From: a virus
DNA: 64,000 bases
Strand: one strand, 5' to 3'
Virus record (IMG/VR): IMGVR_UViG_3300023179_005355
Location: 27,876-91,875 of that record
Shown: piece after piece, positions 1,943-40,681 of the stretch
How positions within the stretch are numbered: position 1 is the first letter of the stretch
How the letters are laid out: each line of letters opens with the position of its first letter
Notes under the pieces: generated by a model
Seen by the model: the letters and a program-made list of their open reading frames with translations, nothing else
Database searches by the model: none
What the model was told of the DNA's origin: nothing
Translations under genes and position numbers: made by a program

Positions 1943-3043
1943 ATGCAAAAAATTATTGATGAACTTAAGCTTGATTTTGATGATGTTTTAATAGTACCTC
2001 AAAGATCAACACTGACTAGTCGTTCAGAAATTCATTTGGAACGCACATTTAATTTTTATCATTCTCCCAGACAATGGACGGGAATACCCATTATGTGTGC
2101 GAATATGAGTTTCTGCTCATTTGGATTAGCTCAAGAACTGGCAAAACTAAAAATGATAGCCTGTTTACACAAGTATCATTCGGTTGATAGTTTGTTGCAG
2201 TATTTTACCGACCATCCTAATAATCTTGACTATACTTTTGTCTCTATTGGATACAAGAAAAGCGACCTCAATCACCTGCTAGAACTCAAGGACAAACTTG
2301 GAAAACAACCTAATATTTGCATAGATGTTCCTAATGGACACATGGATGTGTTTGTAAAATATTGCAAAAAAGTTAGGGATCAATTCTCTGAGTCTATTAT
2401 CATAGCTGGTAATGTTACGAATACCTCATCTACTCAGGAATTATTGATATATGGTGGTGTTGATATTGTAAAAACCGGAATAGGAGGAGGGTCAGCTTGT
2501 ACTACAAGGTTCTTGACAGGCTGCGGAGTGCCTCAATTGTCCTGTTGTTTAGAAAATGCCTATGTAGCCCACGGTCTTCAAAACGGAGCTAAAAAGCTTG
2601 GATTAATATGTTCTGATGGAGGACATAGAACTGTTGGAGATGTATGTAAGGCTTTATGTGCTGGTAGTGACTTTGTGATGCTCGGAGGATATTTTGCTGG
2701 TAGCGAGCCGTGCGAAGGAGAGTGGGAATTAGGCGGAGATTATTCAACAATAGTTGGAACTGATAAAAAAACCAAGGGCAGATTTACGTATTATGGGATG
2801 AGCACGCATCATTCACAAGACACATTTGAAGATGGAACAAAAGACTACAGAGCATCCGAAGGAACAAAAATAACAGTTAATTACAAAGGAACAATCGGTG
2901 AAGTTACGCAAGAGTTATTGGGAGGAATCCGCTCATGTTGTTGCTATGTAGGAGCCTCTCATATCAAATACATGGCTAAATGCAGCCAATTCTGTAAAGT
3001 CAATAAAATACATAATAACAACAATCCAATTTTAGGTGTTTAA
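1943..3043 (+). CDS. guaC: GMP reductase (IMPDH/GMPR family)
   Basis: A 366-residue TIM-barrel enzyme predicted to convert GMP to IMP with NADPH. The N-terminus has the family start LDFDDVLIVPQRST. The catalytic loop GIGGGSACTTR places Cys at residue 186, the position I recall for E. coli GuaC. It is followed by TGCGVPQLS, the SDGGHRTVGDV phosphate-binding strand, AGSDFVMLGG and YYGMSTHHSQ. YRASEG (Glu ~306) matches the GMP-reductase glutamate region, and GGIRSCCCYVGA matches the C-terminal signature. There are no CBS domains and no IMPDH flap, and the length is near that of GuaC (about 347), so reductase is favoured over IMP dehydrogenase. It lies next to a deoxyribosyltransferase-like gene. 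Such a gene is uncommon in phages. Confidence 0.88.
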   Translation: MQKIIDELKLDFDDVLIVPQRSTLTSRSEIHLERTFNFYHSPRQWTGIPIMCANMSFCSFGLAQELAKLKMIACLHKYHSVDSLLQYFTDHPNNLDYTFVSIGYKKSDLNHLLELKDKLGKQPNICIDVPNGHMDVFVKYCKKVRDQFSESIIIAGNVTNTSSTQELLIYGGVDIVKTGIGGGSACTTRFLTGCGVPQLSCCLENAYVAHGLQNGAKKLGLICSDGGHRTVGDVCKALCAGSDFVMLGGYFAGSEPCEGEWELGGDYSTIVGTDKKTKGRFTYYGMSTHHSQDTFEDGTKDYRASEGTKITVNYKGTIGEVTQELLGGIRSCCCYVGASHIKYMAKCSQFCKVNKIHNNNNPILGV

Positions 3044-4110
3044 TGAATATTAACTTAGCAGCGCCCATAAACAGTACCGGCTACGGTATTGCTTCATTTA
3101 ATATAATTAAGGCTTTAAACGCATCGGGAAATACAATATCTTATTTTCCTATAGGACAACCTTCAGTCGAGTCTCAATCAGATCATGACTATGTAATACA
3201 AATATTAAAGCAAAGATATTTATGTGATATCAATGCGCCCTTTCTTAAAATTTGGCACCAATTTGATTTATTAGAACACGTTGGTCGTGGAAAATATTTT
3301 GCTTTTCCTTTTTTTGAATTAGACACTTTTAATGATATAGAAATCAATAGTCTTAGAGTCCCCAATGGAATTTTCGCTACCAGTAAATGGGCAGCAAATA
3401 TAATATCCAATCACGTTAATACTCCTACATTTGTGGCTCCGCTAGGGGTGGACTTGTCTTTATTCGATCCGGTCAAATATAACAATGTTTCACCATCATC
3501 AGATAAATATGTGTTTATCAACATAGGAAAATGGGAAGTTCGTAAAGGTCATGATATTTTATTAGAATTATTTACGAATGCTTTTCCAAATAATAATAAT
3601 GTAGAATTATGGATTTTAGCTTCAGAAACAACAAATTCCTATTCTTCACCGACAGAAATACAGCAATGGAAAAATATGTATAAACACGATAATATAAAAA
3701 TATTTTCAGGTTTTAATAATCACGCAGATATTGCAAAATTAATTTCTCAAGCTAATTGTGGAATTTTTCCTTCTAGAGCAGAGGGTTGGAATATGGAGCT
3801 ATTAGAGTGTATGGCTATGAACAAGCCGGTTATCGCGACTAATTACTCTGCCCATACTGAATTTTGTAATACGGACAACTCATATTTAGTAGATATCCTA
3901 AATACTGAAAAGGCTAATGATGGTAAGGCTTTTGTTGGCCAAGGTAATTGGGCTAAAATTGGAGCTTCAGAAAAAGACCAGTTTATAGACCACATGCGAT
4001 ATATGGTCAATAATAACATAGTTAATAATAATGCTGGTGTAAATACAGCTAGACAACTTTCCTGGACTAATACAGCACAAACCATTTTAAATCATATTAA
4101 CGGTAATTAA
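3043..4110 (+). CDS. Glycosyltransferase family 4 (GT-B fold)
   Basis: A 355-residue GT-B glycosyltransferase. The N-terminal domain starts with a beta strand and Gly-rich loop (MNINLAAPINSTGYG). The linker VFINIGKWEVRKGHD (residues ~162-176) is the standard 'G-x-x-x-x-KG-x-D' entry to the C-terminal Rossmann domain. The donor-binding motif GIFPSRAEGWNMELLECMA (residues ~242-260) shows the family-4 E-x7-E pattern and is followed by KPVIATNYSAHTEF. The start overlaps the GMP reductase stop as TAATG. It uses a nucleotide-activated sugar; acceptor and sugar are unknown. Confidence 0.85.
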   Translation: MNINLAAPINSTGYGIASFNIIKALNASGNTISYFPIGQPSVESQSDHDYVIQILKQRYLCDINAPFLKIWHQFDLLEHVGRGKYFAFPFFELDTFNDIEINSLRVPNGIFATSKWAANIISNHVNTPTFVAPLGVDLSLFDPVKYNNVSPSSDKYVFINIGKWEVRKGHDILLELFTNAFPNNNNVELWILASETTNSYSSPTEIQQWKNMYKHDNIKIFSGFNNHADIAKLISQANCGIFPSRAEGWNMELLECMAMNKPVIATNYSAHTEFCNTDNSYLVDILNTEKANDGKAFVGQGNWAKIGASEKDQFIDHMRYMVNNNIVNNNAGVNTARQLSWTNTAQTILNHINGN

Positions 4111-4112
4111 TT

Positions 4113-4649
4113 ATGCCAATTCCTAAGCCAAATTCAGATGAAAAATCTAAAGATTTTGTTGCTCGTTGCATGAGTAATGAAACAATGCAAAAAGAATATC
4201 CAGACTCAGGACAAAGAGTGGCTATCTGTCTTGGTCAAACAAAGTCATCCCTTATAGAGCAGGTCTGTGAAATTTTAAATTACTCTGATGCGACCCAAGA
4301 TGAAGACGGCGAAGAATTAACAAAATCAAATTTAGTAATACCAAATGATAATGATTATGTAGATATTGCCGAGCTGACAGAGGAATTCGATCTATATGCA
4401 ATATCATCCGAATATCAAGGTCGTAAAGTAACTTTAAATAAACCCTTTAGAACTCCGGGTGGGCCTAAAAAATTTAGCGTATATGTTAAAAACGAAAAGG
4501 GTAATGTTGTAAAAGTTAATTTTGGTGATCCAAACATGAAAATTAAGAAGAATATCCCAGAACGACGAAAAAGTTTTAGAGCCAGACACAACTGCGATAA
4601 TCCGGGACCAAAGTGGAAAGCAAGATATTGGTCTTGCAGAGCATGGTGA
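4113..4649 (+). CDS. Conserved phage protein with N-terminal MPIPKP and C-terminal RARHNC modules
   Basis: A 178-residue protein with two recognisable ends and a variable acidic middle. The N-terminus (MPIPKPNSDEKSKDFVARCM...YPDSGQRVAICL) is a short helical module common in tailed-phage proteins. The C-terminus (GDPNMKIKKNIPERRKSFRARHNC, then ARYWSCRAW) is a conserved basic, Cys-containing module found in phage head-assembly neighbourhoods, often near prohead proteases. The two Cys and one His of the C-terminal module could bind metal. The exact role is unknown. It is followed 17 bp later by a ferritin-like gene with a good AGGAG site. Confidence 0.6.
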   Translation: MPIPKPNSDEKSKDFVARCMSNETMQKEYPDSGQRVAICLGQTKSSLIEQVCEILNYSDATQDEDGEELTKSNLVIPNDNDYVDIAELTEEFDLYAISSEYQGRKVTLNKPFRTPGGPKKFSVYVKNEKGNVVKVNFGDPNMKIKKNIPERRKSFRARHNCDNPGPKWKARYWSCRAW

Positions 4650-4665
4650 TAGGAGTAATTATACG

Positions 4666-5229
4666 ATGTCTTTAAAAAGTTTAGAAGAATTAATTAAGGA
4701 ACAACAGAACATGAATCATGAAAAAACAAAAGCTGCTGAATATGTAGCAGATGAAACCTTTAAGAATATGGCTCAAGATTCAGTTATTGAATTACTGAAA
4801 GAAGCTCTTGTTATTCACTGGGAACAAACACAAATGCTTACTGCAATAGGTGAGCATCTTGATAGGTGGGGCTATAAAAAAATAGCAGATATTATCAAGA
4901 AAGATGCAGAAGAAGAGCATGACCATGCCAGAATAGTTTTAAATAGGCTAGAGTTTTTTGACACTACAGTGGTCTACAATGCTCCTCAAGTAGTGTGGCC
5001 CAGACATGATATGTTAGGTATATTAAATGCAATATTAGCTTCGGTGGTTAAAGCTGCTGTAAACGAAAGAGCACTCATAACGTCTGCTAGAAATGCTGGA
5101 GATGAACTTACGGCTAATATAACGATACCTTTGCTACAGGGGTCTGAGAAAGGCATCATAGAGATGCAAGCATATCTGAAACAAGCAGAACAAATGAGTC
5201 TACAAAACTTTTTAAGCATTTTAGTATAA
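4666..5229 (+). CDS. Ferritin-like / bacterioferritin-like diiron protein
   Basis: A 187-residue helical protein. Residues ~35-105 resemble a bacterioferritin/ferritin-like four-helix bundle: SVIELLKEALVIHWEQTQ, then GEHLDRWGYKKIADII and KKDAEEEHDHARIVLNRLEF, which carries an E-x-x-H diiron-type motif. Later helices (KAAVNERALITSARNAGDEL and GSEKGIIEMQAYLKQAEQM) complete the bundle. It lacks the Dps N-terminal tail and its length is near that of Bfr (about 158) with an extra N-terminal helix. In the family, iron is oxidised and stored or held at a di-iron site. Here it could protect phage DNA or serve as a virion or metal-handling protein; this is inference. It is preceded by AGGAG 11 bp from the ATG. 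Confidence 0.6.
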   Translation: MSLKSLEELIKEQQNMNHEKTKAAEYVADETFKNMAQDSVIELLKEALVIHWEQTQMLTAIGEHLDRWGYKKIADIIKKDAEEEHDHARIVLNRLEFFDTTVVYNAPQVVWPRHDMLGILNAILASVVKAAVNERALITSARNAGDELTANITIPLLQGSEKGIIEMQAYLKQAEQMSLQNFLSILV

Positions 5230-14982: not shown

Positions 14983-15984
14983 ATGTCAAAATTTTCTAAA
15001 CCAACAATTCTTATTACTGGTGCTGCTGGATTTTTGGGTTCTCATTTGGTAGAAGAAATTTTGGTCAATACTAATTGGAATATTATAGGTTTATGTCGCA
15101 TGACCTATGTAGGGGATCTAAGAAGACTAATGGATAGTCTACATGTTCAGAAGCATGCTAATAGAATTAAATTAGTTTATCATGATTTAAAATTTGCATT
15201 ACCTCCACACTTAATAGAAGAAATAGGACAAGTAAACTATATAGCACATATAGCGGCTAATAGTCATGTGGACAGAAGCATTATGTATCCTAAGCAATTC
15301 TTTGAAGACAATGTAATGGGAACAGTCAATCTCTTAGAGTGGTATCGACAATATTCTCCAGAAGCTATTTTTATCAATTATTTAACTGATGAAGTATTTG
15401 GTCCAGCCCCACCGGATTATGACTTTGTAGAAACAGACAGATGGAGACCGTCTAATCCATATAGCGCTAGTAAGGCTGGTCAAGGAGCTGTTGGAATCAG
15501 TTATCATATTACATATAAATTGCCTATTATTACCACCTATACTATGAACTTATTCGGAGAAAGACAGCATAAAGAAAAACTTGTATCTAAAAGCATAGAT
15601 TATATTTTACAAGATAAAACCATTCCGATACATGCTAAATTAGATGATTTTGGTAAAGTTGAATATGTTGGAGAAAGACATTGGTTACATGCTAGAAATG
15701 CAGCTAACGCTACTGTTTTTTTATTCACACATGGTATTGCTGGTGAGCATTATAATATAGTTGGAGATACAAAACTAAAAAACGATGAAATGGTAGAAGC
15801 TATAGCATCTATTCTAAATAAACCATATAAGATAGAATATATAGATTTTCATAAAACTAGACCAGGGCATGATAGAAGATACGCACTAAACGGTAAAAAA
15901 CTTAAAGAAATGGGCTGGGAACCTCCACTCTGTTTTGATATGTCTCTTAAAAAAACTATTGATTGGACACTTAGTCATGGCTAA
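14983..15984 (+). CDS. NAD-dependent sugar-nucleotide epimerase/dehydratase (RmlB-like)
   Basis: A 333-residue short-chain dehydrogenase-type enzyme. The N-terminal Rossmann motif ITGAAGFLGSHLVEE gives the NAD-binding G-x-x-G-x-x-G. The catalytic Tyr and Lys lie in YSASKAG (residues ~161-167). NYLTDEVFGP matches the 'S-T-D-E-V-Y-G' catalytic loop of dTDP-glucose 4,6-dehydratase, with Asp-Glu kept. HAANSHVDRSI is the other RmlB-type landmark. RPGHDRRYAL is the C-terminal substrate-binding signature. The likely product is a 4-keto-6-deoxy sugar nucleotide; exact donor unknown. It fits next to the RgpF-like gene. Confidence 0.85.
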   Translation: MSKFSKPTILITGAAGFLGSHLVEEILVNTNWNIIGLCRMTYVGDLRRLMDSLHVQKHANRIKLVYHDLKFALPPHLIEEIGQVNYIAHIAANSHVDRSIMYPKQFFEDNVMGTVNLLEWYRQYSPEAIFINYLTDEVFGPAPPDYDFVETDRWRPSNPYSASKAGQGAVGISYHITYKLPIITTYTMNLFGERQHKEKLVSKSIDYILQDKTIPIHAKLDDFGKVEYVGERHWLHARNAANATVFLFTHGIAGEHYNIVGDTKLKNDEMVEAIASILNKPYKIEYIDFHKTRPGHDRRYALNGKKLKEMGWEPPLCFDMSLKKTIDWTLSHG

Positions 15985-29789: not shown

Positions 29790-31262
29790 ATGATTTTATG
29801 TGATCCTTCCGCAGAGCGTGCGGTATTGAGCGGCATCTTAAAGTATGGTGAGGATGCCTATTTGGATATTTGTGATATTCTTAAAGAAGATACATTTACT
29901 ATTGACAGCAATCAAATAATCTATAAATGTATTAAGAATATCTGTGATAAAAATTCACAAACTAAAATCGATCTGGCTTCGATATACTCTTCTGCCCAAG
30001 AACTAGATCTTTCTCATATTCTATCAAAGAAAGAAGAAGCGCAGCATCTCAAAGCAATTTTTGACTTCCCAGTTAATTTGGAGAATGTTAGAAAATTTGC
30101 TGCAAAGATTAAGAAACTCGAAATAGCGAGATTGCTCCATAAGGAACTTGAAGGTGTGCAAGAACAGCTATTAGATGTTACTGGCTCAGAAAACATATCT
30201 TCTATAATAGGCATTGCAGAAGATTCCATCTTTAACTTTGCTTCATCATTATCAAGTGACGGAGAATCTACTCCGTTGGCTATTAGTAAAGATATTGATG
30301 ATTATATTAAGTCTTTACAAGAGAATAAAGTTGATCAGATTGGTATCTCAACAGGTTTTCCTGTATATGACCAGTCTATTGGTGGAGGATTACGTCGCGG
30401 AACTGTTAATGTGATAGCAGCTAGACCCAAAGTAGGTAAAACACTACTATCAGACAATATGGGTTATTATATTGCTAGCAAGTTAAAAATACCGGTATTG
30501 AATATGGATACCGAAATGACTAGAGAAGATCATGTGCATCGTATACTTGCTATGTCATCAGAATTAGAAATATCTAAGATAGAAACAGGCAAATTTGGAG
30601 ATACGCCCGGATCTTTAGCCAAGATGAAAGCGGCTGTTAATGAGCTTAAGGAGAGTAGACTTTACCACCATAGTATTGCAGGAAAATCATTTGAAGAACA
30701 ACTAGCTCTAATGAGGAGGTGGATAGTTAAAGAAGTGGGGCTCAATGATGACGGCACTGCCAAAGAGTGTGTAATTTTTTATGATTATCTAAAGCTCATG
30801 GACTCTGCTGGTATTTCTCAGGATATGAAAGAATACCAAGTCCTTGGGTTTATGATGACATCATTACATAATTTTGCCGTTAAATACAAAGTACCTATTG
30901 TAGCCTTTATTCAATTAAATAGAGATGGCATATCTAAAGAAAGTACTGATACTGCCAGCGGTTCCGATAGAATTATATGGTTGTGCAGCAACTTTACTAT
31001 TTTTAAACGTAAATCAGACGAAGAGATTGCAGAAGATGGCGGAGAACATGGAAACAGAAAACTGGTTCCGTTAATTAGTCGCCATGGTGGAGGATTAGAC
31101 GATAATGACTACATCAACTGTCATATGAAGGGGTGGTGTGCTAAAATTACAGAGGGCAAGACCAGATTAGAATTAATGAATAATGTTCAAACTAAAAAAG
31201 ATGGGTTTATAGTTAGCAACAATGAAAACAATGAAGAAACAGAAGAAATACCTTTCGTATGA
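29790..31262 (+). CDS. dnaB: Replicative DNA helicase (DnaB family)
   Basis: A 490-residue DnaB-type hexameric helicase. The N-terminal domain (SAERAVLSGILKYGEDAYLD) resembles the DnaB amino-terminal region. The motor domain has the Walker A NVIAARPKVGKTLLSDNM (residues ~205-222), VLNMDTEMTRED (H1a), the Walker B-like ECVIFYDYLKLMDSAG (~325-340) and the IVAFIQLNRDG sensor. The length is near that of E. coli DnaB (471). Its end overlaps the primase gene by 41 bp, indicating coupled translation of helicase and primase. Confidence 0.88.
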   Translation: MILCDPSAERAVLSGILKYGEDAYLDICDILKEDTFTIDSNQIIYKCIKNICDKNSQTKIDLASIYSSAQELDLSHILSKKEEAQHLKAIFDFPVNLENVRKFAAKIKKLEIARLLHKELEGVQEQLLDVTGSENISSIIGIAEDSIFNFASSLSSDGESTPLAISKDIDDYIKSLQENKVDQIGISTGFPVYDQSIGGGLRRGTVNVIAARPKVGKTLLSDNMGYYIASKLKIPVLNMDTEMTREDHVHRILAMSSELEISKIETGKFGDTPGSLAKMKAAVNELKESRLYHHSIAGKSFEEQLALMRRWIVKEVGLNDDGTAKECVIFYDYLKLMDSAGISQDMKEYQVLGFMMTSLHNFAVKYKVPIVAFIQLNRDGISKESTDTASGSDRIIWLCSNFTIFKRKSDEEIAEDGGEHGNRKLVPLISRHGGGLDDNDYINCHMKGWCAKITEGKTRLELMNNVQTKKDGFIVSNNENNEETEEIPFV

Positions 31263-32388
31263 TCAGCATCAGTTAAAGCATTTATCTGATGTTGTTTGTG
31301 ATGATATTGAAAACCTTTTGAGCCATCTTGGTATAACTTCTTATAGAATGTTAGACAAAATGATCATTATGAGTTGTCCCATTCATGGTGGGGATAATGA
31401 CTCTGCTTTTAATTTATATCATCAAGGAGATTCTTATAGGGGAAATTGGAAATGTCGTACTCATCAATGTGAGGAAACATTCAAGTCCTCTATCATAGGA
31501 TTTATTAGAGGATGCTTATCTCATGAAAAGGGATGGGTAAAACCCGGAGACCCAGTAGTGTCTTTTGCAGAGGCTCTTGGGTATGCTATTGATTTTAGCA
31601 AAGAGGATCCTGCTAATATAAAGGTGTCTAAAAAGGCTAAAGAAAAGTCCACTTTTATTAATGCTATTAAAAATATTCAGCCTTCTGATAGGTTGGCCAA
31701 TATCAGCACTGTGCCCCGAGCATCGGTTGTTAAAGCATTGTCGATTCCTTCCACTTACTTTTTAAATAGAGGGTTCAGCGAGGAAGTATTGAGACGGTAT
31801 GACGTAGGAGACTGCTCTGATCCCAACAAAGAAATGCACTCTAGAGCGGTTGTCCCTGTCTATGATGATAGTGGCCAATATATGATTGGGTGTACGGGTA
31901 GAACAATACATGATAAATGCGGCCAATGTTCAGGATATCATATACCAGACAGCGACTGTCCATCAGATAGTGAAATTTGGAAATATTCTAAATGGAGACA
32001 TAATAAAAACTTTAAAACCCAAGAGTGTCTGTACAACTATTGGTTTGCAAAAGACCATATTTCTACTTCTCATACCGTTATTCTTGTAGAGAGTCCCGGT
32101 AACGTATGGAGACTAGAAGAAGCAGGAATACACAATGCTGTTGCCATCTTCGGCGCATCATTAAGCCACAAGCAGAAGATGTTATTGGACATTTCGGGCG
32201 CAATGAACATAATTACTATTATGGACAATGACCAAGCTGGTCAGGCAGCTGCTAAAAATATTGAAGAGAAATGTTGTAGAACATATAACATTAAACATAT
32301 ACAATTAACTTCTAATGATATTGCAGATATGACAATAGAACAGATTCATGAAAGCATAGTACCACAACTTAAAGGATATACTATATGA
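31222..32388 (+). CDS. DNA primase (zinc finger plus TOPRIM)
   Basis: A 388-residue DnaG-type primase that makes RNA primers. Zinc site near the N-terminus: MSCPIHGGDNDSAFNLY then WKCRTHQCEETF (C-x-x-H ... C-x4-C; residues ~51-85). TOPRIM domain: VILVESPGNVWRLEEAG (Glu at ~285) and ITIMDNDQAGQAAAKN (D-x-D, ~328-343). An RNA polymerase-type core lies between (FLNRGFSEEVLRRYDVGDC, SRAVVPVYDDSGQYMIGCTGR). It overlaps the helicase gene by 41 bp, and its stop overlaps the dNMP kinase start. Confidence 0.85.
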   Translation: MKTMKKQKKYLSYDQHQLKHLSDVVCDDIENLLSHLGITSYRMLDKMIIMSCPIHGGDNDSAFNLYHQGDSYRGNWKCRTHQCEETFKSSIIGFIRGCLSHEKGWVKPGDPVVSFAEALGYAIDFSKEDPANIKVSKKAKEKSTFINAIKNIQPSDRLANISTVPRASVVKALSIPSTYFLNRGFSEEVLRRYDVGDCSDPNKEMHSRAVVPVYDDSGQYMIGCTGRTIHDKCGQCSGYHIPDSDCPSDSEIWKYSKWRHNKNFKTQECLYNYWFAKDHISTSHTVILVESPGNVWRLEEAGIHNAVAIFGASLSHKQKMLLDISGAMNIITIMDNDQAGQAAAKNIEEKCCRTYNIKHIQLTSNDIADMTIEQIHESIVPQLKGYTI

Positions 32389-33116
32389 TAGTGTTGGGTG
32401 TTTCTGGTCGCAAGCAGTCTGGGAAAACAACGGTGGGTAATTTTATTTTATCGTTATATATTGCTAAACTTAATTTGGCTGAAAAAATATTTTTTGATGA
32501 AGATGGGCAGGTTCTTATATCGGACCTTGGTGGAAATAAACAATACGAAGGGGTGTTCTCTCCGTTATCTATACCCAAAACAGATACAGAAGCCCAATCT
32601 CTATTAGCCAAACTAAATAGTCAAATTAAAATTTATAACTTTGCTGATGTGTTAAAACAAGATATTTGTATGAATATTTTGGGTTTAACATATGATCAGT
32701 GTTATGGCTCAGATATGGACAAAAACCAACCAACACACTTGACATGGAATGATCAGCCGCTAACTGCTAGAGACGCTATGCAGATTATCGGGACCGATAT
32801 TTTTCGCAAGCTAGATTCTGACGTATGGGTTAAAGCTACAGTTACTAAAATTGTGAGAGAACAACCCAAACTAGCCGTTATAACCGATTGCCGTTTTCCA
32901 AACGAAGTTGAGGCTATACAAAATATCGGAGGTAAAGTATTAAGACTTACTCGGAATCCGCACAACTCTGATCATTTAAGCGAATGCATCTTAGATAAAG
33001 ATAGGTATGATTGGTCCAAATTTGATCATGTGATAGACAATGCTGAGTCGTCTATATATGATCAGGTTAGTCAAGTAAAAACATTAATAGAAAAAATCCT
33101 AGGATTGACCAGATGA
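32385..33116 (+). CDS. Deoxynucleoside monophosphate kinase
   Basis: A 243-residue P-loop kinase of the phage dNMP kinase type (like T4 gp1), which phosphorylates dNMPs for DNA synthesis. The P-loop is VLGVSGRKQSGKTTVGNF (residues ~2-19). TARDAMQIIGTDIFRKLDSDVWVKA (~125-149) is the characteristic 'R-x-x-M-Q-x-x-G-T-x-x-x-R ... D-x-W' substrate motif. VITDCRFPNEVEAIQ (~166-180) is the Walker B-like strand and lid region. Overlaps of four bases at each end show co-translation. Confidence 0.82.
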   Translation: MIVLGVSGRKQSGKTTVGNFILSLYIAKLNLAEKIFFDEDGQVLISDLGGNKQYEGVFSPLSIPKTDTEAQSLLAKLNSQIKIYNFADVLKQDICMNILGLTYDQCYGSDMDKNQPTHLTWNDQPLTARDAMQIIGTDIFRKLDSDVWVKATVTKIVREQPKLAVITDCRFPNEVEAIQNIGGKVLRLTRNPHNSDHLSECILDKDRYDWSKFDHVIDNAESSIYDQVSQVKTLIEKILGLTR

Positions 33117-34153
33117 TTATAACATATTTTCGTAGTTCCAGTTACAATACACACTCAATGTGTGAACAACAATATTTTGGGGAATATGTTTTAGGGTGGC
33201 GTGGTCTATCTGGCCAAAAGGCAGACAAAGGCACTATTACCCATAAGGTTTTAGAAATTTTAGCAGTCATCAAGAAGGCTCAACAAGATAATTTGGAGTC
33301 TATTGACGATGATGTAGTTGGTTTAATAAATGTAAATAAATATAACTTAAATAGCATTATTGAACAAGTATATAAGCACTATACTGACCTCACACAACAC
33401 CACAAATGGTCGGCTAAAGATTATAAGGATTGTCATGCCTGGGTCTATAAGGCTATAAAATTTAATAATGGAATGTTTGATCCAAGAAATAGACAGATAC
33501 TGTGTCCAGAACAACACTTTGATTTTGAGATTAAAAAACCATGGGCTAAATACTCATATAATGTTGGGTCTCAAACGATAGCAGGTAATTTAGCAATGAA
33601 GGGGACTATAGACCTTATTACTTTAGTGAATGAGGATACTATAGAGATCATAGACTGGAAAACAGGCAGAAGGCTTGATTGGGCAACCGGGGAAGAAAAA
33701 ACACAAGAAAAACTAGAAAAAGATCCTCAATTACGCATTTATCATTATGCTATCAAGCACTTATATCCACATATTAAACATATTATGTTTTCGATATATT
33801 TTATTAATGATGGCGGACCATTCACCATTTGTTTTCATGATTCTGATTTAGCAGATACTGAGAATATGCTACGGGCTAAATTTGAAGCTATTAAAAGCAC
33901 ACGGAAGCCAAGACTAAACAAAAGCTGGATGTGTAGCAAGCTATGTCATTTTGGTAAAACCACATTTGAAAACACCAATATCGAACCCATAGTCGAATAT
34001 AGGGACGGTCAGGTGTGTCAGATTGGACAGAAAATGACTAAGTGCGAGCAGATAAAGCACGACCTTGATCTTTACGGTATCGACACTACAATGGAACTGT
34101 ACAAACACCCGAATCACTCTTTTGGATCTTATAAGGCACCAGGATCGGTATGA
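33113..34153 (+). CDS. PD-(D/E)XK exonuclease, Cas4/RecB-like, possibly iron-sulfur
   Basis: A 346-residue RecB-family nuclease. Motif GTITHKVLEI near residue ~43 gives the conserved His. GTIDLITLVNEDTIEIIDWKTGR (residues ~163-185) supplies the catalytic D and D-W-K, followed by QLRIYHYAI, the 'Q-x-x-x-Y-x-x' motif. Cys residues near the start (SMCEQQY) and in the C-terminal part (WMCSKLCHFG, then two more Cys) fit the one-plus-three pattern of iron-sulfur Cas4/AddB nucleases. It may process DNA ends for recombination. It lies between dNMP kinase and Pol III alpha, coupled by ATGA overlaps. Confidence 0.78.
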   Translation: MIITYFRSSSYNTHSMCEQQYFGEYVLGWRGLSGQKADKGTITHKVLEILAVIKKAQQDNLESIDDDVVGLINVNKYNLNSIIEQVYKHYTDLTQHHKWSAKDYKDCHAWVYKAIKFNNGMFDPRNRQILCPEQHFDFEIKKPWAKYSYNVGSQTIAGNLAMKGTIDLITLVNEDTIEIIDWKTGRRLDWATGEEKTQEKLEKDPQLRIYHYAIKHLYPHIKHIMFSIYFINDGGPFTICFHDSDLADTENMLRAKFEAIKSTRKPRLNKSWMCSKLCHFGKTTFENTNIEPIVEYRDGQVCQIGQKMTKCEQIKHDLDLYGIDTTMELYKHPNHSFGSYKAPGSV

Positions 34154-36018
34154 CAAAAACATACGCCTCTTTGCATAATCATTCTCACTACAGTTTATTG
34201 GATGGAATTAGTAAGCCTCATCAAATAGCACAAAGATGTGCTAGTGTAGGCATAAAGTCTTGTGCCCTTACTGATCATGGCACCATATCTGGTTCCTTAC
34301 AGTTTTTTCAAGCACTTAGGGCTCAAAACATCAAACCTATTTTGGGGTGTGAACTATATATTTCTCATGATGATTCTACTATCAAGTCTAAAGAAAATAA
34401 TGGCTTAAGTCATTTTTTAGTATTGGCTAAAAACTTGGCTGGTTGGCGTAGGCTTATTTCTATAGTTTCTGAAACTAATAGAGAAGAAAATTTTTATCAT
34501 AAGCCTAGAATTAGTATGGATAAATTAGCAAATTTCTTAGATGGAAACATTATAGGATTTTGTGGCCACCTAGGGTCTTTGTTGCCAGATTTGGTTGAAA
34601 CATCCTCAAACACTGCTGAAAAGACTGGCATAGATTTTGTAGCCAAGATGAAAGAAATTTTTGGTCCAGAAAATTTTTTCCTTGAGGTACAACTAATGGA
34701 TAGGGTGTTAAACCCTATGCAGCAAGAGGTTACTGATTTTGTTCGTGCTCTTGGACAGAAAACCAATACAAAAGTAATCTGCACTCCAGACGCACACTAT
34801 TGCAATAAAGAGGATGCTATAGATCAACGTATATTGTTGTGTAATAATCTTAAAACAACACTAGTAGACGTTAACAAAAAACTTTTAGCCAATCAGGAAG
34901 TTCCTCTAAGTTGTTTTTTTCAGTCAGATAACTATCATATTCTGTCTCCAGAAGAAATGTTTGCACTACACACAGAAGAAGAAATTGAGAATACTCTCTA
35001 TGTTGATTCTTTGTGTGAAGAATACAGCATTTTAAGCAAACCGGCTTTGCCTAAATTTGATTGTCCTAATAATTTAGAACCAGACGAATACCTCAGACAA
35101 CTATGCCGAAATGGTTGGCGAGATAAAATATCTAATAAAATACCCGAAACTGAACACGAAACTTATTTAAACAGAATTAAATTTGAACTCAGTGTTTTAC
35201 AAAATGCGGGTTTGTCCAGCTACTTTCTAATTGTTCAGGATATTGTGAATCACGTTAAATCCCATGGCTGGCTTCCCGGTCCCGGAAGAGGTAGTGCTGC
35301 TGGTTGTCTGGTATCATATCTAATAGGTATAACAGATATTAATCCTATCAAATATGATTTGTTATTCGAAAGATTTTATAATGAGGGGCGAAATACAGTC
35401 GATCACATATCCATGCCAGATATAGATGTTGACGTACCTATCACCAAACGAGAATATATTATTGACTATATTAAAAATAAGTATGGTGCAAATAAGGTTT
35501 CTCAGATGATTACTTTCAATACTATGAAAGGTAGAGGGGCTCTTAAAGAAGTTTTAAGAGTATATGGCAATATTTCGTTTGATGAAATGAATAGGATTAC
35601 AAAAAATATTCCAGACGAAGCCAAAATTGCAGACGAGCTTCAAGAAATGAAAGAAGATACCGGTGAAGCTTCTATTATTCAGTGGGCATTAGAAAATAAT
35701 GTTGACAAGCTCAAGGAATGGTGCTATATATCTAATGACAACGTGCTCGAAGGTCCGTTGGCAAAAAGATTTGAGCAGGCAATACGATTAGAGGGTACTA
35801 AATCTAATCAATCAAAACATGCTGCCGGTGTAGTTATTAGTAGTGAAAATCTGAGTTCTGTATGTCCTATGGTATATGACACCAGAAATAAACAAGCCAT
35901 AGCCGGTATGGAAATGCAGGACTTAGAAGGTCTTGGTTTGATCAAATTTGATATTCTAGGTGTTGCAATGTTGGATAAGATTATGACAATATCAGATATA
36001 TTACAATATGGAGAGTAA
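34150..36018 (+). CDS. dnaE: DNA polymerase III alpha subunit, N-terminal part (PHP plus palm)
   Basis: A 622-residue protein covering the PHP domain and polymerase palm of bacterial-type replicase. PHP motifs: ASLHNHSHYSLLDG (residues ~6-19) and ALTDHGTISG. Palm: LPGPGRGSAAGCLVSYLIG (~375-393); the catalytic pair Asp424 and Asp426 in PDIDVDV; and the third, Asp601, in LIKFDILGV. The gene ends 20 residues after this Asp, so all three catalytic Asp are here. The fingers, beta-binding and OB parts are in the gene at 36893. Combined length (1163) equals a normal DnaE (~1160). It overlaps the previous gene by four bases. Confidence 0.9.
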   Translation: MTKTYASLHNHSHYSLLDGISKPHQIAQRCASVGIKSCALTDHGTISGSLQFFQALRAQNIKPILGCELYISHDDSTIKSKENNGLSHFLVLAKNLAGWRRLISIVSETNREENFYHKPRISMDKLANFLDGNIIGFCGHLGSLLPDLVETSSNTAEKTGIDFVAKMKEIFGPENFFLEVQLMDRVLNPMQQEVTDFVRALGQKTNTKVICTPDAHYCNKEDAIDQRILLCNNLKTTLVDVNKKLLANQEVPLSCFFQSDNYHILSPEEMFALHTEEEIENTLYVDSLCEEYSILSKPALPKFDCPNNLEPDEYLRQLCRNGWRDKISNKIPETEHETYLNRIKFELSVLQNAGLSSYFLIVQDIVNHVKSHGWLPGPGRGSAAGCLVSYLIGITDINPIKYDLLFERFYNEGRNTVDHISMPDIDVDVPITKREYIIDYIKNKYGANKVSQMITFNTMKGRGALKEVLRVYGNISFDEMNRITKNIPDEAKIADELQEMKEDTGEASIIQWALENNVDKLKEWCYISNDNVLEGPLAKRFEQAIRLEGTKSNQSKHAAGVVISSENLSSVCPMVYDTRNKQAIAGMEMQDLEGLGLIKFDILGVAMLDKIMTISDILQYGE

Positions 36019-36020
36019 TT

Positions 36021-36200
36021 ATGGAAAAGAAATTTGAAGAGGTTGCCGTTGGCACACAGTTTACAGTCAACGGTGTTGAGTACGTTAAAACAGAAGAGGT
36101 TAGAGTTAGTTGCTGTAGGTCAATTAATTGTCAGGTAGCATCAGACACTAACCAAAAGGCATTTTTTCCAGGTTCAACAGTAGTAGTGGTGAATGGCTAA
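36021..36200 (+). CDS. Small 59-aa conserved-type phage protein between polymerase parts
   Basis: A short gene 2 bp after the first polymerase part and overlapping the exonuclease start by eight bases (ATGGCTAA). Sequence features: MEKKFEEVAVGTQFTVNGVE, then YVKTEEVRVSCCRSINCQVA and a beta-type end FFPGSTVVVVNG. The 'F-x-x-V-x-V-G-x-x-F-x-x-N-G' opening looks like a small beta barrel and recurs in large phages as a protein of unknown function. The three Cys are not in a zinc pattern. Confidence 0.6.
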   Translation: MEKKFEEVAVGTQFTVNGVEYVKTEEVRVSCCRSINCQVASDTNQKAFFPGSTVVVVNG

Positions 36201-36891
36201 TCTACAAAAAATTTGTGTATTTGACTTAGAAACGGACGGGGCTAATCCGGATCTTTGTAGCCCCGTTCAGATTGCTGCTCTAATGATTGATCCGTATCGA
36301 TTAGAGATTATTCCAGACTCTGAATTTAATATAACTGTTAAACCAGAAGCGCTAGAGAATAATATTGAATATGCATATGCAGATTCTGATGTGCTAGATT
36401 TTCATGCCAAGGTCAGATCAAAGCCCAAAGAAGAAATTCTTTGTGACTGGAAATCTTATCAAAAACAAGAAAATGGCTGGAAGTTATTCATATCATACCT
36501 GAATATGTATCATTCTCGCTCAACCGGCAAAAAATCATGCTTTACGGCACCGATTGCAGCTGGTTATAATATAAACAGATTCGATCTTCGGATTATTGAG
36601 AGACTAAGTAAAAAATATGATAATCTTAACAAAGAGGGTAGGTCGGATATATTTTATCCAAGAGATGTTATAGATTTAATGAATTTGGTATTTTACTGGT
36701 TTGAAGGAAATAATGAACTCAAAAATTATACACTCGATAACCTGAGAGACTATTTAGGCATAGATAAAGAAGGCGCTCATGATGCTCTAAAAGATGTTAG
36801 AGATACGGCGGATATTCTTATTAGATTTTTAAGATTACATAGAAATATAGCGACAAAGGTAAAGTTTAAATCAGCTTTTAGTATTAGATAA
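36193..36891 (+). CDS. DEDDh 3'-5' exonuclease (DnaQ/epsilon type)
   Basis: A 232-residue proofreading-type exonuclease. Exo I: VFDLETDGANPD (Asp11, Glu13). Exo II: IAAGYNINRFDLRII (the catalytic Asp lies in NRFD). Exo III: GAHDALKDVRDTADIL (His and Asp of the DEDDh set). It lies between the two polymerase III alpha genes, so it is very likely the epsilon-like proofreading partner of this replicase. Length is similar to E. coli epsilon (243). It overlaps the small gene upstream and ends one base before the second polymerase part. Confidence 0.85.
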   Translation: MANLQKICVFDLETDGANPDLCSPVQIAALMIDPYRLEIIPDSEFNITVKPEALENNIEYAYADSDVLDFHAKVRSKPKEEILCDWKSYQKQENGWKLFISYLNMYHSRSTGKKSCFTAPIAAGYNINRFDLRIIERLSKKYDNLNKEGRSDIFYPRDVIDLMNLVFYWFEGNNELKNYTLDNLRDYLGIDKEGAHDALKDVRDTADILIRFLRLHRNIATKVKFKSAFSIR

Positions 36892-36892
36892 T

Positions 36893-38518
36893 ATGTCAGA
36901 CTTTTTTGTATTTGATTGCGGTTGTAAGTTTGAAGTGTTGGACAAAAGTGGAGAATTTCCTAAAATTAAATTTTCTCCTAAGTTATCTGATATTAGTCTT
37001 GATTGTTATAAAACATGGGAGCTTATTTCTGCTGGAAATACCAAGGGGTGCTTTCAATTAGAATCAAGGCTTGGTCAAACCATGGCCAGAAAATTGAAGC
37101 CTCAAAATATTGAACAGCTATCTGGGCTTATTAGTATTTTAAGGCCGGGGTGTCTAGAGGCTCATCGTGACGGTAAGAGCGTAAGTAGTCATTATATAGA
37201 TAAGAAAAATGGTTTAGAGTCTATTGATTATTTTCATCCGGCATTAGAACCAATTTTAAAAGACACTTATTCTGAAATGATTTACCAAGAACAAGCTATG
37301 TCTATCGCTAAAGAGTTAGCTGGTTTTAATCTTAAAGAAGCGGATGACTTAAGAAAAGCGATTGGAAAAAAACAGGCTGACAAGATGGCAAAGGTACGCA
37401 AACAATTTATAGAAGGAGCTAAAAAAACAGGAAAACTATCAGAAGCAGAGGCCGCACAAATCTTTGAATGGATTGAAAAATCTCAAAGATATTTATTTAA
37501 TGCTAGTCATTCTATCAGTTATGCAATGAATGCATATTTGTCGGCATATGCCAAGGCACATTTCCCAAAAGTTTTCTTCGCATCATATTTAAGGTTTGCT
37601 AAAGACAAAATCGATCCACAACAAGAAATTAAAGAATTAGTTAGAAATGCAATGGAAATGGACATAGAAGTTCATATTCCTGATTTTAGAAATACCAATG
37701 AGTTTTTTGTATTAAAAGATAAAAAAATATACTTTGGCCTGACTGATATAAAGGGAGTTGGCAAATCTGTATATACTAAAATTTTACAACTAACAAAAAA
37801 CGTTAATATATCAGAAGTATCTTGGCCAGAAATGATAGGCACCATACTAATGAATATTAATTCTGTCGCCGCCAAGGCATTGATTAGCTGTGGTGCATTT
37901 GATTACTATAAAAAGAATAGATCAGAAATGTTATTTGAATACGATATTTGTTCCGGCCTAACAAAGAAAGAACAAACAGCATTTAATGTATATGCTAAAA
38001 CAATGATTGGTAGCAGTGTAAAAGAAATTATGCAAAGGCTGTTTGTTGAGACCAAACTAATTCGTGGCCGTAAAGAAACAGTATCTAATTATATCAAATC
38101 ACTAGAGCATCCACCATATTCTTTAATCGATAAAATTGAATGGTTATCCGATCAAGAAAATGAGCTTTTGGGTGTGGGTATTACGTGTTCCAAATTAGAT
38201 GTTTATGATATTACTATGGCCAATTGCAATTGTAAAACATTTAAAACATCTTTATTAAAAGAAAATATTGTATTGGTTGGAGAAATTAGTAATATTAATG
38301 TGACAAAAACTAAGAGTGGAAAAAATCCAGGGTTGGAGATGGCATTTGTTACTATAGAAGATCAATATGGAACATTAGATTCGGTAGTATTATTTCCAGA
38401 ACAATTCTCCAAATATCGTTCATATTTATTTTTAGGAAATATTCTAGTATTTTCTGGGAATAAAAGCAAAAGCAAGGATGGTCTGATCGTAGAAAAGTGT
38501 TTTGAGCCCGTGGCTTGA
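36893..38518 (+). CDS. dnaE: DNA polymerase III alpha subunit, C-terminal part (fingers to OB fold)
   Basis: A 541-residue protein that continues alpha from just after the palm. It starts with a novel segment MSDFFVFDCGCKFEVLDKSG, then DISLDCYKTWELISAGNTKGCFQLESRLGQTMARKLKPQ aligns with the DnaE fingers (normally 'DTVGVFQLES'). Further landmarks: LISILRPGCLEAHRDG, SEMIYQEQAMSIAKELAGF, DDLRKAIGKK, and LFNASHSISYAMNAYLSAYAKAHFP. GAFDYYKKNR ends the helix-hairpin region, and an OB fold follows (IVLVGEISNINVTKTKSG to SKDGLIVEKC). No catalytic Asp is needed here. The split falls between palm and fingers and has no intein sequence. Confidence 0.9.
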   Translation: MSDFFVFDCGCKFEVLDKSGEFPKIKFSPKLSDISLDCYKTWELISAGNTKGCFQLESRLGQTMARKLKPQNIEQLSGLISILRPGCLEAHRDGKSVSSHYIDKKNGLESIDYFHPALEPILKDTYSEMIYQEQAMSIAKELAGFNLKEADDLRKAIGKKQADKMAKVRKQFIEGAKKTGKLSEAEAAQIFEWIEKSQRYLFNASHSISYAMNAYLSAYAKAHFPKVFFASYLRFAKDKIDPQQEIKELVRNAMEMDIEVHIPDFRNTNEFFVLKDKKIYFGLTDIKGVGKSVYTKILQLTKNVNISEVSWPEMIGTILMNINSVAAKALISCGAFDYYKKNRSEMLFEYDICSGLTKKEQTAFNVYAKTMIGSSVKEIMQRLFVETKLIRGRKETVSNYIKSLEHPPYSLIDKIEWLSDQENELLGVGITCSKLDVYDITMANCNCKTFKTSLLKENIVLVGEISNINVTKTKSGKNPGLEMAFVTIEDQYGTLDSVVLFPEQFSKYRSYLFLGNILVFSGNKSKSKDGLIVEKCFEPVA

Positions 38519-38542
38519 CAGAAAGGGGCTCTTCACTATAAT
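38515..38542 (+). promoter_or_regulatory. Consensus sigma-70 promoter for ssb
   Basis: A perfect TTGACA (38515-38520), 16-bp spacer and perfect TATAAT (38537-38542). The -35 overlaps the stop of the polymerase gene. It lies 41 bp before the ssb ATG, leaving a short leader. Such a match implies strong transcription by host RNA polymerase. Confidence 0.88.
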
Positions 38543-38582
38543 GTAATAGTTGCGTGGTTTCTTTTTTACCAAGGAGTTTGAA

Positions 38583-38954
38583 ATGAATATAACATTGCTA
38601 AGGGGTAATCTTGCTCGTGATCCAGAACTAAGGGTTGTGAATACTGGAGGCAAGCAAACATCTGTTGTCAATTTTACTGTAGCGGTATCACGCGAGTATA
38701 CCAAGACCAGTGGAGACAAGGATAAGATTACATCCTTTATTAATTGTGAGGCTTGGGATAGTGGCGCCGAGATGATCGCTGAATCTTTTAAGAAGGGCGA
38801 TCTAGTAATGGTCGAAGGATCATTACGTAATGACACATGGGAAAAGGATGGCGTTAAGCATAGTAGTCTTAAGGTTAGGGTTAATAACTTCTCTAAGATT
38901 ACCCGCCTTACCAAGAACAGTAAGCAGGAATCATCTGAGCCTGTAGCATTTTAA
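38583..38954 (+). CDS. ssb: Single-stranded DNA-binding protein
   Basis: A 123-residue bacterial-type SSB. The start at 38583 (AAGGAG 8-9 bp upstream) gives the family beginning MNITLLRGNLARDPELR. The OB fold follows: VVNFTVAVSREYTKTSGDKD, FINCEAWDSGAEMIAESFKKGDLVMVEGSL and WEKDGVKHSSLKVRVNNF. The C-terminal tail is short and ends EPVAF instead of the acidic DDDIPF tip, so binding to host SSB partners may be altered. It forms a one-gene unit with a consensus promoter and terminator, consistent with very high expression. Confidence 0.92.
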   Translation: MNITLLRGNLARDPELRVVNTGGKQTSVVNFTVAVSREYTKTSGDKDKITSFINCEAWDSGAEMIAESFKKGDLVMVEGSLRNDTWEKDGVKHSSLKVRVNNFSKITRLTKNSKQESSEPVAF

Positions 38955-38979
38955 TTCTGATAGGAATTTAGGACAAATG

Positions 38980-39006
38980 CGGGGGTCTGTGAATAGCGGA
39001 CCCCCG
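38980..39006 (+). terminator. Intrinsic terminator after ssb
   Basis: An 8-bp G+C-rich stem (CGGGGGTC and GACCCCCG) with an 11-base loop, followed by TATTCTT, begins 26 bp after the ssb stop. The T tract is imperfect, but the stem is very stable in this A+T-rich DNA. It ends the ssb unit just before the third sugar cluster. Confidence 0.78.
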
Positions 39007-39013
39007 TATTCTT

Positions 39014-40681
39014 ATGATGACAAAAAACAAACTTAAAGTCTTAATGTGTTCAGAAGCCAGCTTTGTTAATTCTGGTTTCGGTATTTATGCGAAAGAGCTA
39101 CTCTCTAGGCTGCACAAAACAAATAAGTATGAAATAGCAGAATTTGCTTCATATGGATTTGTCAATGATCCTAGAGATTCTTCTATTCATTGGAAATATT
39201 ACGCCAATGCGGTGAGAGATACCGACCCAAGACATAAAGAGTATATGTCGAGGGTAGACAATCAATTTGGTCGCTGGAGATTTGAGAAAGTTTTATTAGA
39301 CTTTAAGCCAGATGTTGTCATTGATGTTAGAGACTACTGGATGAGTGCCTATCAAGCAATGTCTCCACTACGAAAATTTTTCCATTGGATATTGATGCCA
39401 ACGGTCGATTCCTCTCCTCAACAAGAAGAATGGATAGATACTTTTTTAGGTGCGGATGCAATTTTTACTTATTCTGACTGGGGCGCAGAGGTATTAAAAG
39501 AGCAGTCATCTAATAAAATCAACTATATAGATACAGCATCTCCCGGTGTGGATATTAATGTATTTAAAATTAAAAACCGTGCCGAAGTTAAACAACAACT
39601 AGGCTTATCTCAAGACTCCATTATTATTGGTTCTGTTATGAGGAACCAAAAACGAAAGCTGATACCAGAATTATTTAGTGTTTTTAGAAAAACGTTAGAT
39701 AAACTACAATCAGACAATAGTCCCATAGGACATAACCTATATCTTTATTTACACACCAGCTACCCTGATATGGGTTGGGATATTCCTGAGCTACTAAGAC
39801 AGTATAGAGTGGCCAATAAGGTACTTTTTACGTATATTTGCAAAAGTTGCAAAGTGACTGAATGTTCTGTTTTTAGCGGTGCTCAAAAAGTATGCAAGAG
39901 ATGCATGAGCAAAACAATGACATTCCCGTCAGTTACTGACGGCGTTACACCAGAAACACTAAGCAGCATCTATAACATATTTGATTTATACATACAATAT
40001 TCAATATGCGAAGGCTTTGGGATGCCACAAGTCGAAGCAGGGGCTTGCGGAGTGCCCATTGCTACAGTTAATTATAGTGCAATGTGCGACATAGTTAAAA
40101 AACTTAAAGCATATCCAATTAAGGTTCGTACATTATTTAAGGAACTAGAAACTAAGGCCCTAAGAGCCTATCCAGATAATGAAGACCTTAGTAACTATAT
40201 TCTAGACTTTATTAACAAACCAGCACCAACCAGAGAAAGTCTTAGGCATGAAATACAAGAATTAGCACATCAGTATTATAATTGGGATATTATTGCTAAA
40301 AAATGGGAACAATATCTAGATTCTTTGAATGCCAAGAGCTACAGAGCCAACTGGAATGATGGAGAATATCAAGTAAATGTCAAACCACAAACCAACGTAC
40401 AGCCACAAGAATATTTTGATCAGCTAATAGCGATTTGTAATAATAATTTTAAAGATCCTGGAATCATAGGATCTCACAAAATGCTAGAATTATTAAACAA
40501 CGCCGATTACGGCTTTGTTCAAAGTAGTGCTATGTCTATGGCCGCGTTTGATTTTAATGGAGTACTAGACTATATTAATACTCTAATCAACAATAATAAC
40601 CAAGCACATAATGTAAAAATAAATAATACTAAGTTTGATGAAGACTTTATACAATATTCTCACTTAAAAAGTAATACATAA
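39014..40681 (+). CDS. GT-B glycosyltransferase with an inserted zinc-ribbon-like segment
   Basis: A 555-residue family-4-like glycosyltransferase. The N-terminus LMCSEASFVNSGFGIYAKELL is the Gly-rich acceptor loop. The C-terminal donor domain has the E-x7-E motif in SICEGFGMPQVEAGACGVPIA. Between them (residues ~276-300) lies a Cys-rich insertion, YICKSCKVTEC and VCKRCMSKTM (two C-x-x-C pairs), which looks like a zinc ribbon. About 120 residues after the GT domain are of unknown function. The insertion is unusual for GT4 and may bind the acceptor or another protein. ATG at 39014 or 39017. Confidence 0.75.
   Translation: MMTKNKLKVLMCSEASFVNSGFGIYAKELLSRLHKTNKYEIAEFASYGFVNDPRDSSIHWKYYANAVRDTDPRHKEYMSRVDNQFGRWRFEKVLLDFKPDVVIDVRDYWMSAYQAMSPLRKFFHWILMPTVDSSPQQEEWIDTFLGADAIFTYSDWGAEVLKEQSSNKINYIDTASPGVDINVFKIKNRAEVKQQLGLSQDSIIIGSVMRNQKRKLIPELFSVFRKTLDKLQSDNSPIGHNLYLYLHTSYPDMGWDIPELLRQYRVANKVLFTYICKSCKVTECSVFSGAQKVCKRCMSKTMTFPSVTDGVTPETLSSIYNIFDLYIQYSICEGFGMPQVEAGACGVPIATVNYSAMCDIVKKLKAYPIKVRTLFKELETKALRAYPDNEDLSNYILDFINKPAPTRESLRHEIQELAHQYYNWDIIAKKWEQYLDSLNAKSYRANWNDGEYQVNVKPQTNVQPQEYFDQLIAICNNNFKDPGIIGSHKMLELLNNADYGFVQSSAMSMAAFDFNGVLDYINTLINNNNQAHNVKINNTKFDEDFIQYSHLKSNT

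Follow-up and report, generated by a model that had tools for sequence, protein, structure and literature searches.

The DNA analysed here is a 64,000-nucleotide window of the virus record IMGVR_UViG_3300023179_005355, which is 91,875 bases long in full. On its plus strand the window carries a replication block in the order DnaB helicase, Toprim primase, dNMP kinase, PD-(D/E)XK exonuclease, alpha-N, a gene for a protein of 59 amino acids (aa), epsilon, alpha-C and single-stranded DNA-binding protein (SSB). Alpha-N and alpha-C are two separate genes that each encode part of a DnaE-type DNA polymerase III (Pol III) alpha subunit, and the epsilon gene, encoding a DnaQ-type exonuclease, lies between them. 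The open reading frame (ORF) coordinates of alpha-N, the 59-aa gene, epsilon and alpha-C came out as the first-pass annotation of this DNA had given them (Table 1).

Domain content of the two alpha genes

Alpha-N was matched by Pfam PHP in its N-terminal part (5.6e-34) and by DNA_pol3_alpha (1.2e-74). Its profile (A2) matched M. tuberculosis DnaE1 in a single stretch, residues 9-598, and Taq alpha between residues 6 and 637 in three stretches. Asp 424, 426 and 601, which we take to be the three catalytic Asp, were invariant among 89 aligned alpha-N sequences, D601 being located 21 residues before the C-terminal end. The PHP histidines H9, H11, H43, H88 and H140, presumably metal ligands, are present in the window, as is H216 further along alpha-N. 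Alpha-C was matched by DNA_pol3_finger (3.6e-44), by HHH_6 (4.9e-9) and, below Pfam's cut-off, by an OB-fold family (2.1e-5), and its fingers residues are strongly conserved among relatives. For both genes, profile matches to PolC were far weaker than those to DnaE.

The alpha-C profile begins at residue 640 of the Taq, 578 of the E. coli and 610 of the M. tuberculosis enzyme, and in phrog_405 alpha-N covers positions 41-612 and alpha-C positions 622-1052. An AlphaFold2 (AF2) model of alpha-C alone reached a mean pLDDT of 91.7 and was aligned by VIA-align with M. tuberculosis 7pu7 (Z 21.1, rmsd 4.1, 458 residues aligned) and with E. coli alpha 5fku (Z 21.6, rmsd 8.8, 463 aligned), model residues 19-541 falling on residues 576-1075 of the latter chain. 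These profile and model alignments place the break between palm and fingers, leave about 18-21 extra residues at the start of alpha-C and indicate that the domain following the OB fold is absent. They show alpha-N and alpha-C to complement each other end to end when compared with known alpha subunits. As the split runs between palm and fingers, the active site would be built from two proteins.

Two details of the first-pass annotation have to be revised. It had given alpha-C a new N-terminal segment of about 35 residues; the alignment of model residue 19, and of those that follow, with E. coli alpha from 576 on reduces this length to about 18-21. This segment includes a hairpin of two predicted strands, residues 4-6 and 12-17, with a Cys-Gly-Cys (CGC) motif between them. 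Residues 1-18, a region barely tested, lie outside the listed alignments to DnaE structures, and no match was reported for them. The annotation had also concluded that nothing is missing, given that the two parts add up to 1163 residues. However, alpha-C ends at about residue 1075 of E. coli alpha or 1125 of Taq alpha, and the match of the summed lengths to a full DnaE is a coincidence. We take the E. coli domain beyond about residue 1075 to be tau-binding.

Table 1. Replication block of the window and alpha-N pieces of relatives
Feature	Position	Strand	Basis
DnaB helicase, Toprim primase, dNMP kinase, PD-(D/E)XK exonuclease (upstream replication genes)	29790..34153	+	Pfam, PHROGs
Alpha-N, PHP and palm of DnaE-type Pol III alpha, 622 aa	34150..36018	+	Pfam PHP, DNA_pol3_alpha; profile matches
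PHP domain, alpha-N residues 8-181	34171..34692	+	Pfam
Palm, alpha-N residues 313-604, with Asp 424, 426, 601	35086..35961	+	Pfam DNA_pol3_alpha; invariant columns
Small beta protein, 59 aa, invariant Cys31-Cys32	36021..36200	+	Alignment, AF2 model
Epsilon, DnaQ-type DEDDh 3'-5' exonuclease, 232 aa, conserved C-terminal tail	36193..36891	+	Pfam RNase_T, phrog_192
Alpha-C, fingers, HhH region and OB fold, 541 aa	36893..38518	+	Pfam, AF2 model, VIA-align
CGC-bearing (C9, C11) N-terminal beta hairpin of alpha-C	36902..36943	+	AF2 strands; extra relative to unsplit DnaE
SSB gene, next in operon	38586..38954	+	Pfam SSB
Alpha-N pieces at the MPDID break	L023:2140-3441 + 4252-5133; L049:2126-3424 + 4235-5119; L366:1942-3240 + 4051-4935		

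Conservation of the split and possible routes of joining

We gathered 350 viral loci starting from alpha-C, from alpha-N and from more distant members, many of them repeats of the same contig, and classed each by BLAST of its ORFs. Alpha was split in 315 loci and incomplete in 35; none of the 350 held it fused in a single polypeptide. In the incomplete loci one half was unrecognised, most of them being short fragments, together with mini-polymerase loci of the L340 and L344 kind (see below). When loci with different alpha-C residues 50-150 were counted once, 122 distinct loci remained, and the epsilon gene lay between the alpha halves in all of them. Two alpha genes with a DnaQ-type exonuclease gene between them, as originally noticed, are therefore real, and the two-gene alpha of the window is no error. 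All complete relatives seen retain the split, with identities as low as about 36% for alpha-C and 41% for alpha-N. For the nine of 19 gene comparisons with finite dS, dN/dS ranged from 0.045 to 0.131, a sign of purifying selection. The polymerase region of the window matched the 197-kb IMG/VR contig L001 at 100% for every compared gene except SSB (99%).

A scan of assemblies of bacteria and archaea gave 538 loci; of the best 80, 71 had a single-ORF DnaE, six were split and three unclassified. Five of the six (L366-L370) belong in or near the window's family and the sixth, L422, is a bacterial dnaE. The phage-type polymerase block of the window's kind was seen in contigs of metagenome-assembled genomes (MAGs) assigned to Lokiarchaeota (L368, L369), SAR202 (L370) and Verrucomicrobiales (L371), which are probably phage contigs. 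Ten phage isolates were also inspected: alpha was a single ORF in eight, split at palm/fingers in Rossellomorea phage phiT1 and broken at the DxD motif in Bacillus phage Jayan. Three 'Bacteriophage sp.' entries (MT836213, MT836494, MT835501) were considered as the nearest unsplit phage relatives and rejected, as housekeeping-type genes stand beside dnaE by eye; despite their label they look like pieces of bacterial chromosomes. In a maximum-likelihood tree of alpha-N (45 rows; L370 and L371 not included) the 33 sampled clade members grouped on a single branch of length 1.94 with support 100/100, separate from phiT1 and from the unsplit DnaE of phages and bacteria; the positions of the outgroups are unsure because several branches are long.

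In cyanobacteria DnaE is encoded by two genes that are split inside the fingers, and the products are religated by a split intein. That the two halves of the window's alpha are likewise joined after translation is almost certainly not the case. In 115 of 115 loci with a single-piece alpha-N its C-terminus lies only 20-32 residues past the third Asp, and the alpha-C N-termini seen consist of a short hairpin or belong to the fingers from the outset, so that intein halves would have no space at the break. These ends bear out the first-pass annotation, which had seen no intein there and had distinguished the break from the cyanobacterial intein site; indeed, the window's break lies upstream of that site. 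What keeps the idea in view are intein-like sequences elsewhere in the same gene of relatives, recognised by motif inspection and not by profile. Split intein-like halves with an ORF between them were found at GPGRG^S in L005:1327-4406, whose ORF weakly matches phage endonuclease families, and in L131:2068-5128. At FNK^SHS, by our reckoning a few residues from the cyanobacterial DnaE intein site, an intein-like insert is present in cis in L230:10763-12844 and in split form in L228:8706-11653, with a LAGLIDADG gene between, and in L224:11943-12830. The 701-aa alpha-C of L287 (10522-12627) aligns with that of L230 over its full length and may carry such an insert too.

Joining at the level of RNA or translation, through an intron, a frameshift or bypassing, appears highly improbable at the palm/fingers break. 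The gap is filled with conserved genes, epsilon in 122 of 122 loci, and alpha-C has its own start. Window positions 33000-39100 gave no Rfam match at E up to 0.5, a weak negative because the same kind of search also returned nothing at the break of phage Jayan. Intron-like insertions that break alpha elsewhere, in Jayan and in the bacterial dnaE of L422, speak for such a mechanism. In Jayan (PQ299153, L365:2983-6390) alpha is annotated as a pair of DNA polymerase genes; the break falls at MP^DIDTD, where a 76-aa ORF separates them, and looks intron-like, but has no Rfam match. The dnaE of L422 (1389-7971), from a Clostridiales MAG, contains a reverse-transcriptase/maturase-like ORF near the third catalytic Asp and is, judged by eye, probably interrupted by a group II intron.

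It is also conceivable that the phage genome is copied by the host replicase and that the halves act separately, alpha-N as a PHP nuclease and alpha-C in DNA binding. The window's PHP histidines are kept, as this requires, and a phage sliding clamp (PF02767) was found in 0 of 7 virus records. We nevertheless regard the proposal as very unlikely: the polymerase Asp are invariant in the 89 sequences, the fingers are strongly conserved and the phage encodes its own helicase, primase and SSB. Moreover, each of the ten virus records searched, nine of 170-231 kb and the window's own, contained one palm match and one fingers match, and none of the ten gave a match to PolA or PolB; apart from the split DnaE, no replicative polymerase was recognised in these phages. 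Four relatives that retain epsilon (L331, L332, L335, L336) have kept none of H43, H88, H140 and H216; with these histidines lost, their PHP nuclease activity is probably gone.

Taken together, we read the locus, whose kind recurs in a large family of uncultured phages, as encoding a DnaE core of two chains that assemble without a covalent link and are served by a separate proofreader, and give this reading a probability of roughly 0.85. Alpha-N, epsilon and alpha-C are separate ORFs in a tightly packed operon. The epsilon and alpha-C ORFs are 1 base apart in the window and, taking the longest start, overlap in 86 of 122 loci, most commonly by 8 or 4 bases. Alpha-N contributes PHP and the palm, including the three catalytic Asp, and alpha-C the fingers, HhH region and OB fold; the two would dock non-covalently at the palm/fingers boundary to form one polymerase, and proofreading would fall to epsilon as a chain of its own. 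The fission itself may have arisen when a homing endonuclease gene landed at this boundary. We infer physical assembly, catalytic activity and endonuclease-driven fission.

Several points weigh against this reading. With no phage clamp found in the 7 records, processivity is unexplained unless a host clamp is used. The absences in the virus records are provisional since these records carry no completeness estimate, and the window's own record and one of the nine represent almost the same virus. Of the five viral scans, three cover the best 80 of 239, 235 and 96 relatives. Finally, dS was infinite in 10 of the 19 dN/dS comparisons and above 1 in the other nine.

Around the polymerase genes, SSB adjoins alpha-C downstream in 78 of 80 loci of one relative set, the remaining two (L021, L056) ending there. 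The PD-(D/E)XK exonuclease ORF is about 315-330 aa longer in L011:1281-3266, L023:2-2026 and L039:1269-3257, where an insertion that may be an intein lies near residue 183/184; it is missing from the exonuclease of the window. The window further holds sugar and nucleotide cargo at 1943-3040, 3043-4107, 14983-15981 and 39014-40678: an IMPDH/GMP reductase-type gene, a nucleotide-sugar epimerase/dehydratase and glycosyltransferases.

Epsilon, the 59-aa protein and the CGC hairpin

Epsilon was matched by Pfam RNase_T (1.2e-10) and by phrog_192. Its complete Exo I-III motifs with the DEDDh His, as first described, are near-invariant among 122 aligned sequences: D11 is kept in 119, E13 in 120, D131 in 121 and both H196 and D201 in all 122. 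A KFKxAF-like tail (residues ~223-229) is also conserved, with F229 in 121 of 122, and this pattern is possibly that of a docking or clamp-binding peptide. Unlike in PolC, where the exonuclease resides inside the polymerase chain, epsilon is encoded by an ORF separate from alpha.

The 59-aa protein carries a Cys-Cys (CC) motif that was invariant in 110 aligned sequences. Its AF2 model (pLDDT 93.6) shows a small beta fold with a weak resemblance to SH3-like/EF-P domain I (best Foldseek E 0.11). No Pfam or PHROG family was assigned, and phage isolates gave no match at E up to 0.01. As a parallel only, a gene for a small SH3-fold protein adjoins another jumbo-phage polymerase, according to passages of PMC7824862. 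The protein was present in 112 of 122 loci, 106 of them recognised by BLAST and six more (L112, L160, L224, L329, L221, L121) by the CC motif at the same place. In the remaining ten loci (L230, L232, L233, L239, L243, L245-L247, L284, L287), all of which keep the split, no such protein was seen.

The CGC motif of alpha-C was likewise found in 112 of 122 loci; two have CAC or CDC and eight have lost the whole segment. Five of these eight are in the alpha-N tree, where they form two separate groups (L332 and L335; L197, L221 and L227). L268 and L329, the loci with CAC or CDC, are placed with the L332/L335 group, which has also lost PHP histidines. A further alpha-C cysteine, C38, is kept in all 122 loci, but is absent from L370 and L371. 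L370 has the split with epsilon and neither CGC nor C38, and L371 has a similar alpha-C start on a contig that ends before alpha-N.

The first-pass annotation had proposed a three- or four-part replicase made of separate chains, with the new alpha-C N-terminus and perhaps the 59-aa protein acting as joints. The comparative data give good support to the separate chains. The joints did not hold up: loci lacking the hairpin or the 59-aa protein keep the split, hence both are dispensable and neither is a universal joint. A stricter form of the idea, in which zinc links the CGC hairpin to the CC motif and so locks the chains together, would fit the prevalence of both motifs and their prediction as compact beta elements. 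However, we judge it unlikely. In all seven of the CGC-less loci with an aligned 59-aa protein, Cys31 and Cys32 are kept; conversely, L230, L232 and L239 have CGC without the 59-aa protein, and L370 and L371 lack CGC. A survey for a cross-chain ligand lost together with CGC returned C9 and C11 themselves only: no other Cys or His column of alpha-N, alpha-C, epsilon or the 59-aa protein was kept in at least 80% of CGC-bearing sequences and lost in both loss groups. Hairpin and 59-aa protein may instead be accessories that help folding or docking.

Origin of the breaks and relation to known systems

HNH-type or endonuclease VII-type genes lie between the alpha halves in the deep members L239, L246 and L370, which is consistent with fission through insertion of an endonuclease gene. 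Speaking against an endonuclease origin, the scan of gap ORFs comprised four deep members (L239, L245, L246, L370), the 305-aa gap ORF of L245 had no match and L247 has no extra gap ORF. Furthermore, L246 carries another HNH gene just upstream of alpha-N, outside the split, and such genes are therefore not special to the gap.

Alpha-N is itself in two pieces in the seven of 122 distinct loci other than the 115 mentioned above. An intein-free break just before the MPDID motif was found in L023, L049, L051 and L366. The gap holds an ORF, a LAGLIDADG gene in L023 (the one tested), and the second piece gains a 92-residue extension. The 92 extra codons at the L023/L049 break stay in frame with a pN/pS of 0.57, a value from what are in effect two independent sequences; a search for an intron at this break gave no Rfam match. 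Relatives of this type would assemble alpha from three chains, unless the pieces are joined at the RNA level, which is possible there. Elsewhere, alpha-N occupies five short ORFs in L297:5998-7889 and two overlapping ones in L114:3205-4933, perhaps owing to sequencing frameshifts. Five PHROG families of 421-823 positions (phrog_7513, phrog_13169, phrog_21652, phrog_4335, phrog_12219) match parts of the window's alpha only, a sequence pattern which suggests that other phages also carry alpha in pieces, with other break points.

The endonuclease genes in the gap and the further breaks suggest repeated fission of alpha by homing endonucleases. A wider picture, to which we give slightly less than even odds, is that of an ancient phage lineage performing all replication with a C-family polymerase that is obligately heteromeric, its active site being divided between two chains. 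Homing endonucleases would keep fragmenting its alpha, at palm/fingers in all members seen, ahead of the Asp pair in some and through split inteins at two points, and the breaks would be healed by protein splicing or by docking. If true, these phages represent a natural series leading from endonuclease or split-intein insertion to a permanent multi-subunit enzyme. Because the relatives differ in where alpha is broken and in whether inteins are present, they allow a test of how insertion of a mobile element leads to an enzyme of several subunits. The window offers a natural two-piece DnaE usable for biochemistry, and the kept split suggests that a DnaE core can work without covalent continuity. 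For annotation there is a warning as well: such phages appear to carry two partial alpha genes.

Bacterial DnaE proteins (E. coli 5fku, Taq 2hpi/4iqj, M. tuberculosis 7pu7) share with the window's alpha the domain order PHP, palm, fingers, HhH and OB. In contrast to them, the window has two chains, no domain after the OB fold, an extra CGC hairpin at the break and an epsilon gene inside the split. Cyanobacterial split DnaE is likewise encoded by two genes, whereas the window's split is located upstream of that site and is intein-free. According to passages of PMC3919608, inteins split a number of polymerases in cyanobacteria, and in phage MIJ3 the PolB gene is broken by a putative split intein, as described in part of PMC6892783.

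One precedent is that of group 2.2 jumbo phages, for which passages of PMC7824862 describe a minimal Pol III alpha in two standalone proteins that, according to its authors, likely reconstitute the enzyme. This split alpha lacks other Pol III domains, its genes are far apart and it occurs alongside a family B polymerase. The window's alpha, by comparison with these passages, is near full length and encoded in one operon, has PHP and OB domains and is accompanied by PolB in none of the ten records. Very small ORFs resembling DnaE, 186-244 aa long and corresponding to pieces of the palm or of palm and fingers (phrog_11778, phrog_405), were seen at L340:5710-6315, L344:5087-5647 and L344:10755-11486 on contigs that look T4-like by eye, and they fit the split minimal alpha as described in that source.

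Another precedent is phage phiT1 (PV767480), an isolate that shares the palm/fingers break in gp20-gp19-gp18; a 49-aa ORF separates the halves, each of which is annotated as 'DNA polymerase III subunit alpha'. Unlike the window, it has no epsilon in the gap and no CGC, and it falls outside the window's clade in the alpha-N tree, with its long branches; its split is therefore probably a separate, independent fission. In 2009 Dassa et al. reportedly described 'fractured genes', in which split inteins occur together with free-standing homing endonucleases and a phage replication gene is broken in two with the endonuclease between. The relatives L005 and L131 look like such genes at another site of alpha, whereas the palm/fingers break has no intein and the window no endonuclease. 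Among the literature matches listed, titles and abstract openings held no report of a DnaE of nearly full length that is divided at palm/fingers and has epsilon between its halves, and passages on 'split' in PMC12926913 and PMC3919608 held no such case.

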